Part shown: piece by piece, positions 57,575 through 61,308 of the stretch | Layout of the letters: each line of letters begins with the position of its first letter | Numbering within the stretch: position 1 is the first letter of the stretch | Assembly: GCA_902591565.1 (NCBI GenBank) | Contig: CACJBC010000004.1 | Location: 1 to 64,000 of the forward strand | Direction: 5' to 3' | DNA from: an uncultured SAR86 cluster bacterium | GTDB taxonomy: Bacteria > Pseudomonadota > Gammaproteobacteria > Magnimaribacterales > D2472 | DNA: 64,000 nt | Notes under the pieces: model-generated | The model's input: the letters and a program-made list of their open reading frames with translations, nothing else | Database searches by the model: none | Told to the model about the DNA's origin: nothing | Program-made: the position numbers and the translations under genes

Positions 57575-57590
57575 TGGCACCTAAATTGCA
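57575..57590 (+). promoter_or_regulatory. Sigma-54 (-24/-12) type promoter upstream of the TorF-PII-amtB-1 unit
   Basis: TGGCAC-C-TAAA-TTGCA matches the sigma-54 consensus TGGCACG-N4-TTGCW with correct spacing, ~44 nt upstream of the ATG. Confidence 0.75.
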
Positions 57591-57633: not shown

Positions 57634-58221
57634 ATGAAAAAATTGTTTTTACTTGTAGGGATCATATCTTTACCAACTTTTGCAGGAGTTAGTGCAAATG
57701 TTAGTTTTGCCTCAGATTATATCTGGAGAGGAATGACACAAACTGACGGCCCAGCAATGTCAGGTGGTTTTGATTATGAATCAGAAAGTGGATTCTACGC
57801 AGGGATCTGGGGTTCAAATGTAAACTTTAGTGATGGTGCGGGTAGTGAGTTAGATTACTATTTTGGATATGCTTTTGATTTTGGTTCAATTGGAGTAGAT
57901 CTAGGATATGTTGCATTTGATTACCCAGAAGCAACTGATTTAGATTTTGAAGAGGTAGTTCTAGGTTTATCTTATGGTGACGTAGGTCTTACTTTTGCAC
58001 TTGGTCAAGACAGTGCTCCAGACTATACAGAAGTTTCTTATGCATTAGGTGCTGTAGGTTTTGCTTATGGTCAGTACGACGATTATGGTGACAACTTAGT
58101 TATTTCATATGGATTCTCATGCGGATCATATGATTGTGGTTTAGCTTACACTGATTTCTCAGCAGATGCGGCTGGCGCAGATGATGATTATTTAGTGTTT
58201 TCAATTTCAGCAAGTCTTTAA
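57634..58221 (+). CDS. TorF family putative porin
   Basis: Signal peptide; VSANVSFASDYIWRGMTQTDGPAMSGGFDYESESGFYAGIWGSNVNF typical of TIGR02001-type proteins. Confidence 0.88.
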   Translation: MKKLFLLVGIISLPTFAGVSANVSFASDYIWRGMTQTDGPAMSGGFDYESESGFYAGIWGSNVNFSDGAGSELDYYFGYAFDFGSIGVDLGYVAFDYPEATDLDFEEVVLGLSYGDVGLTFALGQDSAPDYTEVSYALGAVGFAYGQYDDYGDNLVISYGFSCGSYDCGLAYTDFSADAAGADDDYLVFSISASL

Positions 58222-58228
58222 TTCTTAA

Positions 58229-58585
<357 letters not shown>

Positions 58586-58595
58586 GGAGTAAAAG

Positions 58596-59837
58596 ATGGA
58601 AGAAATTGCATTTGCTTTAGATACATTTTACGCAGTAATGGCAGGAGCTCTTGTTATGTTTATGGCAGCTGGTTTTACCATGCTTGAAGCAGGACTTGTA
58701 CAAAAGAAAGATGTATCAGAAATTGTAACGAAAAATATAGGCTTATACTCAATAGCTTGTATTATGTACTTAGCTTGTGGCTTTGTGATTATGTACCCTG
58801 GTTCATATATTATTGAAGGAGTTTTACCGTCAATTCTTGGAACAAGTTCATTTGGGTTATCTACTTCATTACCTAATGAAGATATAGGTATGCCATATGG
58901 TATGGATTATTCACAACAAGCTGACTTCTTTTTTCAAGTAGTTTTTGTTGCTACGGCAATGTCGATAGTATCAGGAGCTGTTGCTGGAAGAATGAAACTT
59001 ATACCTTTCTACTTATTTGCTATCGTATTAACAGGTTTGATATATCCTATTCAAGGCGCATGGAATTGGGGTGGTGGTTTCTTAAGCGGAACTCTCGGCT
59101 ACTCTGACTATGCAGGATCAGGAACAGTGCATTTATGTGGTGCAGCTGCAGCATTAGCAGTTGTAACGGTTTTAGGACCAAGAAATGGTAAGTATGCTCC
59201 TGATGGTACATCTTTACCTATGCCTGGGTCTAATATACCAATGGCTGCATTAGGTGTATGGATTCTTTGGTTAGGTTGGTTTGGATTCAATGGCGGATCT
59301 GAGTTAATTGTAAGCAACGAAGCATCTGCTATTGCTGTTAGTCAGGTATTTATGAATACAAACATGGCTGCATGTGGTGGTGTTGTTGCTGCAATCTTAG
59401 TTAGCTTAATTAGAACAGGTAAAATGGATGTAACAATGGCTATGAATGGAGCTATTGCTGGTCTAGTAGCAATCACAGCTGGTCCAAGTGCCCCATCTGG
59501 TGGTGCTGCAATCTTAATTGGAGCATTAGGTGGTGTCTTAGTATATTTCTCAATCTTATTTTTTGACAATGTACTAAAACTTGATGATCCAGTAGGCGCT
59601 ATTTCAGCTCATGGTACTGTTGGTATTCTAGGTGTTATGGTTGTTCCATTTACATCTGATGCTTCATTCTTCGCACAATTCATTGGTGTAATTGCAATTG
59701 CTGGATTTACGTTTATTGCTAGTTTGTTAACAATCTATGCAATTAACGCTGTATTGCCAATTAGAGCAAGTGATGACGAACAGTATGCTGGTCTTGATAG
59801 TTCTGAGATAGGAGTTGAAGCTTATCCAGAATTTTAA
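58596..59837 (+). CDS. amtB: Ammonium transporter (paralog 1)
   Basis: FTMLEAGLVQKKDV, GAWNWGGGFLSG, DYAGSGTVHLCGAAAALA, LGWFGFNGGSEL, DDPVGAISAHGTVGILGVM. Confidence 0.95.
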   Translation: MEEIAFALDTFYAVMAGALVMFMAAGFTMLEAGLVQKKDVSEIVTKNIGLYSIACIMYLACGFVIMYPGSYIIEGVLPSILGTSSFGLSTSLPNEDIGMPYGMDYSQQADFFFQVVFVATAMSIVSGAVAGRMKLIPFYLFAIVLTGLIYPIQGAWNWGGGFLSGTLGYSDYAGSGTVHLCGAAAALAVVTVLGPRNGKYAPDGTSLPMPGSNIPMAALGVWILWLGWFGFNGGSELIVSNEASAIAVSQVFMNTNMAACGGVVAAILVSLIRTGKMDVTMAMNGAIAGLVAITAGPSAPSGGAAILIGALGGVLVYFSILFFDNVLKLDDPVGAISAHGTVGILGVMVVPFTSDASFFAQFIGVIAIAGFTFIASLLTIYAINAVLPIRASDDEQYAGLDSSEIGVEAYPEF

Positions 59838-59841
59838 GTTT

Positions 59842-59931
59842 ATGAGTTAGGTTCATATCTCCCCCTTTTATACCTAACTTATAAAAACACGAAAAGAGCC
59901 GTTATCTCCCCCTTTAACGGCTCTTTTTTTT
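59842..59931 (+). ncRNA. Tandem stem-loops with identical C-rich loop motifs; the second doubles as a Rho-independent terminator
   Basis: SL1 AGTTAGGT (59845-59852)/ACCTAACT (59872-59879), loop TCATATCTCCCCCTTTTAT; SL2 AAAAGAGCCGTTA (59892-59904)/TAACGGCTCTTTT (59915-59927), loop TCTCCCCCTT, followed by a T-tract. Confidence 0.7.
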
Positions 59932-59964: not shown

Positions 59965-59980
59965 TGGCATATAAATTGCA
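59965..59980 (+). promoter_or_regulatory. Sigma-54 (-24/-12) type promoter upstream of amtB paralog 2
   Basis: TGGCAT-A-TAAA-TTGCA, same spacing and core as 57575-57590; flanked by inverted repeat ATACATG/CATGTAT. Confidence 0.7.
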
Positions 59981-60024
59981 TGTATGAATTGAATGTAATA
60001 AATATATATATTTTTTAGGGAGAT

Positions 60025-61308
60025 ATGATGAATAAGATATATTTAATCTTTGGCAGCCTTTTGGCTACTCAATTTGTTCAGGGAGATGAAATTAATTCTG
60101 GTGATGCTGCTTGGATTTTAACATCTACTGCATTGGTTCTTTTGATGACATTACCTGGACTAGCATTGTTTTATGGTGGATTAGTTCGATCAAAAAATGT
60201 TCTTTCTGTATTGATGCAATGTTTTACAATTGCTTGTTTAATGTCAGTTTGTTGGGTTGTATATGGTTACAGCTTAGCTTTTAAGGGTGATGGTTTATTT
60301 ATTGGTGATCTTAGCGCACTATTTTTAAATGGTGTAGAAAGAGACTCGATTTCAGGAACACTACCTGAGTCAGTATTTATAACTTTCCAAATGACTTTTG
60401 CAATTATAACTCCAGCTCTTGTAGTAGGTGCATTTGCAGAAAGAATGAAATTTACTGCTATGTGTATTTTTTCAGTTGCATGGTTTACTTTTGTATATCT
60501 TCCAGCATGTCATATGGTTTGGGGCGGTGGATATCTAGGCAGCATAGGTGTTATTGATTTTGCAGGCGGTCTTGTTGTGCACGCTACATGTGGAATTGGA
60601 GCGCTAGTAGCAGCAATCTACTTAGGCCAAAGAAATGGATTCATGAAATCACCAATGCCACCGCATAACAGAACAATGGTCATGATTGGTGCATCAATGC
60701 TATGGGTTGGCTGGTTTGGTTTTAATGCTGGTAGTGCTGTTGCTGCAGACAGTTCAGCAGGTATGGCTATGCTAGTAACTCATATTAGTGCTGCAACAGG
60801 TGCATTAACTTGGATGGCCATTGAATGGATTAAATCAGGTAAAGCAACAATGATTGGTATAGCTACAGGTATGGTAGCTGGTTTAGCTACTATCACACCA
60901 GCTTCTGGATCTGTTGGTCCGGCTGGTGCATTATTAATTGGATTCTTAGCAGGATTAGTATGTTTTTATTCCACTCAGGCAGTTAAATCTTACTTCAAAA
61001 TTGATGATTCGCTAGATGTATTTCCTGTTCATGGTGTCGGCGGTATTCTTGGAATTATTATGATTGCCTTTGTTGGTAATCCTGATGGTTTTCTTGGATC
61101 AGGAGCTGCTGGTATTTCTGAAGATGGTGCAATTGCACAGTTAATGATTCAACTTCAAGGAGTTATAGTTATCTCAGCTTATACAGCCATAGTTACATAC
61201 GTAATTCTAAAATTAGTTAGCACAGTAACTGATCTTAGAGCATCAGAAGAAGATGAGGATGTTGGTTTAGATATGAGTGAACATAACGAACAGGGTTATA
61301 GTTTATAA
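60025..61308 (+). CDS. amtB: Ammonium transporter (paralog 2)
   Basis: GLALFYGGLVRSKNVLSVLMQ, GGYLGSIGVIDFAGGLVVHATCGIGAL, VGWFGFNAGSA, FPVHGVGGILGI; signal-like N-terminus. Confidence 0.95.
   Translation: MMNKIYLIFGSLLATQFVQGDEINSGDAAWILTSTALVLLMTLPGLALFYGGLVRSKNVLSVLMQCFTIACLMSVCWVVYGYSLAFKGDGLFIGDLSALFLNGVERDSISGTLPESVFITFQMTFAIITPALVVGAFAERMKFTAMCIFSVAWFTFVYLPACHMVWGGGYLGSIGVIDFAGGLVVHATCGIGALVAAIYLGQRNGFMKSPMPPHNRTMVMIGASMLWVGWFGFNAGSAVAADSSAGMAMLVTHISAATGALTWMAIEWIKSGKATMIGIATGMVAGLATITPASGSVGPAGALLIGFLAGLVCFYSTQAVKSYFKIDDSLDVFPVHGVGGILGIIMIAFVGNPDGFLGSGAAGISEDGAIAQLMIQLQGVIVISAYTAIVTYVILKLVSTVTDLRASEEDEDVGLDMSEHNEQGYSL

Follow-up and report, generated by a model that had tools for sequence, protein, structure and literature searches.

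The sX13 RNA of Xanthomonas carries apical C-rich loops on stable stem-loops, represses mRNAs with G-rich motifs near their start and is described as Hfq-independent (PMC3771888). In Rhizobiales, NfeR1 / alpha-r14 (“cuckoo”), which has its own promoter, displays the same CCUCCUCCC in all three of its loops; it is linked to nitrogen stress and blocks the ribosome-binding site (RBS) of ntrB (PMC10746234). Other regulatory RNAs come from the 3'UTR of an mRNA, such as CcsR1-4 of Rhodobacter sphaeroides, four RNAs located behind ccaF1, matured by RNase E and targeting C1 metabolism and pyruvate dehydrogenase (PMC8625941), and GlnZ of Enterobacteriaceae, a small RNA from the 3'UTR of the nitrogen assimilation gene glnA, which pairs with another mRNA (PMC9731577). 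Finally, in icaR of Staphylococcus aureus, a C-rich 3'UTR motif pairs with the Shine-Dalgarno (SD) sequence of its own mRNA (PMC3868564).

The locus studied here lies in a 64,000-nt stretch of DNA (hereafter, the window), for which the closest named matches of AmtB1 are found in SAR86 single-cell genomes, and which thus comes from a SAR86-cluster gammaproteobacterium. SAR86 is an abundant uncultured bacterium of the surface ocean.

Gene order and promoters

Throughout the locus, gcw, glnK, amtB1, two hairpins and amtB2 follow each other on the + strand. The genes and promoters are as follows:

57575..57590, + strand: sigma-54-like promoter TGGCAC-N5-TTGCA, 5' of the gcw-glnK-amtB1 operon (pattern search)
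57634..58221, + strand: gcw, first operon gene, encoding an outer-membrane-like protein of the Gcw_chp family (Pfam PF09694, 2.7e-18)
58247..58585, + strand: glnK, PII signalling protein (Pfam PF00543, 7.5e-31)
58596..59837, + strand: amtB1, ammonium transporter, with the hairpins in its mRNA tail (Pfam PF00909, 6.8e-92)
59965..59980, + strand: sigma-54-like promoter TGGCAT-N5-TTGCA of amtB2 (pattern search)
60025..61308, + strand: amtB2, second ammonium transporter and proposed regulated gene (Pfam PF00909, 3.2e-117)

In a pattern search, TGGCAY-N5-TTGCA has four sites in the assembly and none in the reversed control. Related genomes carry a sigma-54-like motif about 35-45 nt upstream of the gcw start, and most of their amtB1-amtB2 intergenic regions contain the same element. 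With such elements before both gcw and amtB2, and a terminator-like hairpin in between, the two units probably share nitrogen control while being separate transcripts.

Several side observations were made on these genes and promoters. First, glnK has no SD but CCCCCC a few bases upstream of its ATG instead (ATTCCCCCCTTTATATTATG, window 58233-58246), a C-rich stretch that is kept in most relatives of genus g1 (the genus of the window) and in those of g4, and not in those of g9. Second, several SAR86 genomes encode, 26-55 nt downstream of a sigma-54-like promoter, a conserved protein of 128-134 aa without any Pfam match (L435 on contig 15 of G000, L418, L412, L427, L414, L434, L417), possibly the product of a new nitrogen-stress gene. 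Third, TonB-receptor-like proteins are found behind sigma-54-like promoters in G055 (L437), G062 (L426) and G076 (L420), which suggests that outer-membrane uptake belongs to the same regulon. Finally, the glnK-amtB1 region of G055 exists in two copies (L189, L216) about 5 kb apart and with identical 3' hairpins; one of them is followed by an N gap, and an assembly artefact is possible.

Two hairpins downstream of amtB1

Folding of the 96 nt downstream of the amtB1 stop yields two neighbouring stem-loops with a minimum free energy of -33.5 kcal/mol (z = -9.85, with none of 200 shuffles equally stable), so that the pair of stem-loops with a shared C-rich motif pointed out by the initial annotation is real. 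The elements of interest are:

59839..59885, + strand: hairpin 1, the conserved C-rich seed hairpin, with a 14-bp stem and a 19-nt loop (fold, exposure, compensatory changes)
59853..59863, + strand: seed UCAUAUCUCCC in loop 1 (duplex energy, covariation test)
59891..59931, + strand: hairpin 2 and U-tract, terminator-like (fold)
60018..60028, + strand: target GGGAGAUAUGA, RBS and start of amtB2 (uniqueness of GGGAGATAT as RBS)

Stem 1 (59839-59852/59872-59885) encloses the loop UCAUAUCUCCCCCUUUUAU, while stem 2 (59891-59904/59915-59928) encloses the 10-nt loop UCUCCCCCUU and is followed by the U-tract, which agrees with its earlier description as a terminator; a simple terminator scan of the window, confined to loops of at most 8 nt, therefore did not flag hairpin 2. 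The hairpins (59839-59928, with the U-tract to 59931) sit between the amtB1 stop (59837) and the end of the terminator, i.e., at the location expected of a 3'UTR-derived small RNA, and a stable hairpin presents the C-run unpaired in its loop, as in sX13-like C-rich-loop antisense RNAs. The two loops read AUAUCUCCCCC and UCUCCCCCUU. The motif ATCTCCCCCTTT has exactly two copies in the 1.07-Mb assembly, both in these hairpins, and none in the reversed control, while AUCUCCCCCUUU or its core is present in both loops, this 12-mer having no other copy in the assembly. Moreover, the noncoding DNA of the window (31% GC) contains just three runs of at least five C on either strand: loop 1, loop 2 and the one directly upstream of glnK. 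No Rfam family reached its gathering threshold, the best scores being those of ES056 (26.4 bits vs. 43) and LhrC (26.1 vs. 110).

Conservation of the hairpins

The region downstream of amtB1 was gathered from 108 genomes of the searched family. A C-run is present close behind the amtB1 stop at 52 loci from 51 genomes (g1, g2, g3, g4, g6, g8 and most of g9) and, when each locus is folded alone, it is unpaired with a probability of at least 0.95 in 45 of them; among the 108 genomes, no C-rich element was found after amtB1 in g5, most of g7, G107, G077 and G080. The stem sequence of hairpin 1 differs from genus to genus, while the C-run is kept. Within g1, both bases have changed with pairing preserved at three of the six aligned stem pairs; these are the compensatory changes around a kept loop that the initial annotation had proposed to look for. 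The outer stem of g9 is for the most part invariant. As for loop 2, it is C-rich as in the window only in the sister genome G099, and elsewhere partly or not at all.

The initial annotation had taken variable stems with conserved loops as the mark of a functional RNA, and loops as variable as the stems as a reason to abandon this idea. Hairpin 1, with its rewritten stem and its lasting C-rich loop, supports a functional RNA with an anti-SD-like loop, whereas loop 2 varies freely beyond the nearest species. The twin loops are thus rejected as a conserved unit, and the “twin” is better seen as a single conserved hairpin that has been elaborated locally, since a C-rich loop 2 is limited to the closest species. 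In the window species only, the loop UCUCCCCCUU could provide a second, shorter contact.

Separately, several g9 genomes possess a further hairpin with a C-rich loop downstream of amtB2 (L168, L169, L184, L206, L156, L221, L222), the loop being, for instance, AAAUCUCCCCCUUUC in G077/G080 and GCACCCCCCUAAAG in G088. It also occurs in genomes with a gcw-glnK-amtB2 arrangement that are devoid of amtB1.

Loop 1 and the amtB2 ribosome-binding site

The seed UCAUAUCUCCC of loop 1 and the RBS/start region GGGAGAUAUGA of the adjacent amtB2 are perfectly complementary over 11 contiguous bp (-18.7 kcal/mol), a match that the earlier reader had overlooked, along with the covariation described below. Only 0.145% of random 37-mers drawn from the window form an equally good duplex. 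When the 57 gene starts of the window are ordered by duplex energy with loop 1, amtB2 comes second, the only better one looking mis-called and internal to an ORF. Accessibility is predicted for seed and RBS alike. Of the 11 copies of GGGAGATAT in the assembly, only that of amtB2 serves as the RBS of a long ORF. The G-rich match at the translation start thus exceeds chance, as in target sites of the sX13 type.

Complementarity is also observed where both partners are unlike those of the window, with loop AAAAUGCUCC matching RBS GGAGCAUUUU in G075, AGUGCUCC matching GGAGCACU in G066, AAAAAUGCUCC matching GGGGCAUUUUU in G065 (one G-U), and CCUAUAUGUAA matching UUACAUAUAGG in G014. In G073, GUACUC-C-CCC pairs with GGG-A-GAGUGC, while in G044, where glnK2 precedes amtB2, the loop CUCCCUAUU matches AAUAGGGAG, a site upstream of glnK2. 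Pairing is modest in G001, G012 and G054, and poor (-5 to -9 kcal/mol) in the subclade of the close relatives G089/G092/G102/G104.

The complementarity is partly trivial. Because any C-run pairs with any SD, each loop was tested against the RBS of its own clade and those of other clades, and only the excess in matched pairs counts as evidence. The pattern was noticed by eye first and tested afterwards, on 24 genomes from 11 clades (following our own grouping), the RBSs being permuted among clades. Own pairs have a mean duplex energy of -14.86 kcal/mol vs. -11.69 (sd 0.71) for swapped clades, a value equalled in 1 of 200,000 permutations. The p-value stays at or below 2e-4 whichever clade is left out, and the covariation survives trimming to the loop core; when both the C-run and the SD core are masked, it is weaker (p = 0.0016). 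In g9 alone, the true pairing is the best of all 120 arrangements, while the clades other than g9 alone yield p = 0.044. In the same permutation test, no own-pair advantage was found with the RBS of amtB1 (p = 0.92) or gcw (p = 0.99) as partner. Likewise, neither the terminator hairpin against the amtB2 RBS (p = 0.44), nor five other sections of the target leader or coding sequence (p = 0.18-0.95), nor a mock loop taken from the amtB1 coding sequence (p = 0.96) showed any effect. For a study based on sequences only, this is strong evidence that the loop and the amtB2 RBS have coevolved across lineages. Such coevolution tests antisense pairing in nature with unusual clarity, evolution having already made the compensatory changes in seed and target.

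Proposed mechanism and alternatives

On balance, we consider it probable that the glnK-amtB1 operon, which would respond to nitrogen, yields a 3'UTR RNA that blocks amtB2 translation in trans. The end of the gcw-glnK-amtB1 transcript would be a discrete, terminator-ended small RNA of about 95 nt, either kept as the 3' end of the mRNA or cut from it, in which hairpin 1 would display the C-rich seed in its large loop. The amtB2 mRNA would be made from its own sigma-54-type promoter, located 30-50 nt upstream. By pairing in trans with the amtB2 RBS and start codon region, the seed would bar ribosome entry on this mRNA. As nitrogen limitation would induce both transcripts, more amtB1 operon RNA would mean less AmtB2, i.e., an incoherent feed-forward link fixing the AmtB1:AmtB2 ratio.

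Hfq (PF17209) was not detected in 10 SAR86 genomes (including G000, G054 and G062), nine of which are at least 90% complete; the same search matched its controls in E. coli and others, though a divergent Hfq may be missed. The host Hfq expected for an Hfq-dependent small RNA was thus not found in these genomes, and RNA stability and pairing would need another route. This apparent absence would fit a stable loop-seed design like that of sX13.

The C-rich loop is not restricted to genomes in which its presumed target was found. At least 16 g9 genomes and all g3 genomes keep it without a detected amtB2, so amtB2 cannot be the sole target; where amtB2 is missing, the seed probably pairs with other mRNAs. 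Beyond the searched family, the amtB1 3'UTR of the sister SAR86 family f2 carries a C-rich motif before the terminator (UUUCUCCCUAA, UUCUCCCCCUAA, UAUCCUCCCCCCUAA, UUUUCCUCCCGC), as does that of some f4 genomes (UUUUCUCUCCCC); these motifs are mostly unstructured and lie just 5' of the terminator (L441-L451 for f2, L456-L460 for f4), g11 and G131 having a C-rich motif in the terminator loop too. No such motif was found in the amtB1 3'UTR of four f3 genomes. The seed therefore probably predates both its display in a hairpin loop and its link to amtB2. In the f2 genus g12, the region downstream of amtB1 contains a glutamine riboswitch (Rfam RF01739, 39-41 bits, above threshold; L028:4318-4457 and L058:4317-4457), about 300 nt upstream of a 296-aa phytanoyl-CoA dioxygenase-like ORF.

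This distribution bears on the most serious alternative, in which the element would be a general anti-SD small RNA with many targets, amtB2 being one of several and the others driving its conservation. C-rich seeds do occur in the amtB1 3'UTR of f1, f2 and partly f4, including genomes without an adjacent amtB2, and known C-rich-loop RNAs, sX13 among them, act on many targets (PMC3771888). We nonetheless find this reading rather unlikely, given that the flanks of the seed follow the amtB2 RBS lineage by lineage and that no second conserved target was found. Among g9 genomes without amtB2, GGAGCAC or GGGAGCAC before a start was rejected as the mark of a second target, the recurring matches being coding or antisense sequence. 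RBS matches seen in a single genome (DUF3450-like protein, TonB receptor, BI-1-like protein) are not conserved, the seed has no match in the RBSs of other genes behind sigma-54-like promoters, and a target search in the f2 genus g11 returned no conserved match. As for metY (O-acetylhomoserine sulfhydrylase), it seemed to covary with the loop in G065, G057 and G081, but the permutation test gave p = 0.049 over all clades and p = 0.45 within g9; this case illustrates how easily an SD-like match misleads, and that the test can reject one.

A second alternative dispenses with a separate small RNA: in a read-through amtB1-amtB2 transcript, the loop would fold onto the amtB2 RBS and silence it, so that only transcripts from the own promoter of amtB2 would be translated. 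Loop and target are on the same strand and about 160 nt apart, and since all pairs of the covariation test are adjacent, covariation cannot tell cis from trans. Yet loop and target are separated by a terminator-like hairpin and a sigma-54-like promoter, and the loop persists in genomes without a downstream amtB2, which makes such insulation improbable. Less probable still is an ordinary 3'-end stabilising hairpin with a terminator, or a protein-binding C-rich site, the RBS match being a coincidence; hairpins of this kind are common at 3' ends and binding of a protein would likewise keep the C-run, but neither predicts that loop flanks match the amtB2 RBS in a lineage-specific manner. Autoregulation as in icaR, where the 3'UTR motif UCCCCUG pairs with the SD of its own mRNA (PMC3868564), is very improbable here, considering that the RBSs of amtB1 and gcw gave no own-pair advantage and that glnK has no SD at all in the genus of the window.

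Extending trans repression of amtB2 to the whole order, we tentatively suggest a SAR86 family of Hfq-independent amtB1-tail RNAs, in which seed and RBS of the neighbouring paralogue would coevolve in each lineage, the message of one transporter thereby setting how much of the other is made, and which may be kept for other targets after the loss of the paralogue. Our text search found no published SAR86 regulatory RNA of this kind, which, given its incomplete coverage of the literature, is weak evidence of novelty. The comparisons made here point to a so far unreported RNA switch between two ammonium transporters; if true, nitrogen uptake would be controlled post-transcriptionally in a streamlined genome seemingly devoid of Hfq.

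Comparison with known systems

Like icaR, the SAR86 element sets a C-rich 3'UTR against an SD, except that icaR acts on its own mRNA, whereas the RBSs of the SAR86 operon itself do not covary with the loop. It shares its origin in an mRNA 3'UTR with CcsR1-4 and, more specifically, in the 3'UTR of a nitrogen-assimilation mRNA with GlnZ; in contrast, GlnZ depends on Hfq and RNase E, targets sucA far upstream of its start and has another parent gene (PMC9731577). The resemblance to cuckoo and CcsR RNAs proposed by the initial annotation holds for the structure, as NfeR1/alpha-r14 also combines unrelated stems with conserved anti-SD loops, but not for membership: identical CCUCCUCCC loops are absent, the seed being instead rewritten by lineage, and the host is a gammaproteobacterium rather than an alphaproteobacterium, so the element does not belong to the cuckoo/alpha-r14 RNAs.

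S. aureus RNAs with UCCC loops are C-rich-loop RNAs too, and it is these and sX13 that the SAR86 element resembles in its proposed mode of action. With sX13, it has in common the C-rich loops, the G-rich targets at start sites and a gammaproteobacterial host. However, sX13 is encoded by a gene of its own at the polA locus, has three hairpins and acts on many targets, whereas the SAR86 element lies in an mRNA 3'UTR and has a single conserved seed hairpin, whose target lies next to it and covaries with it.
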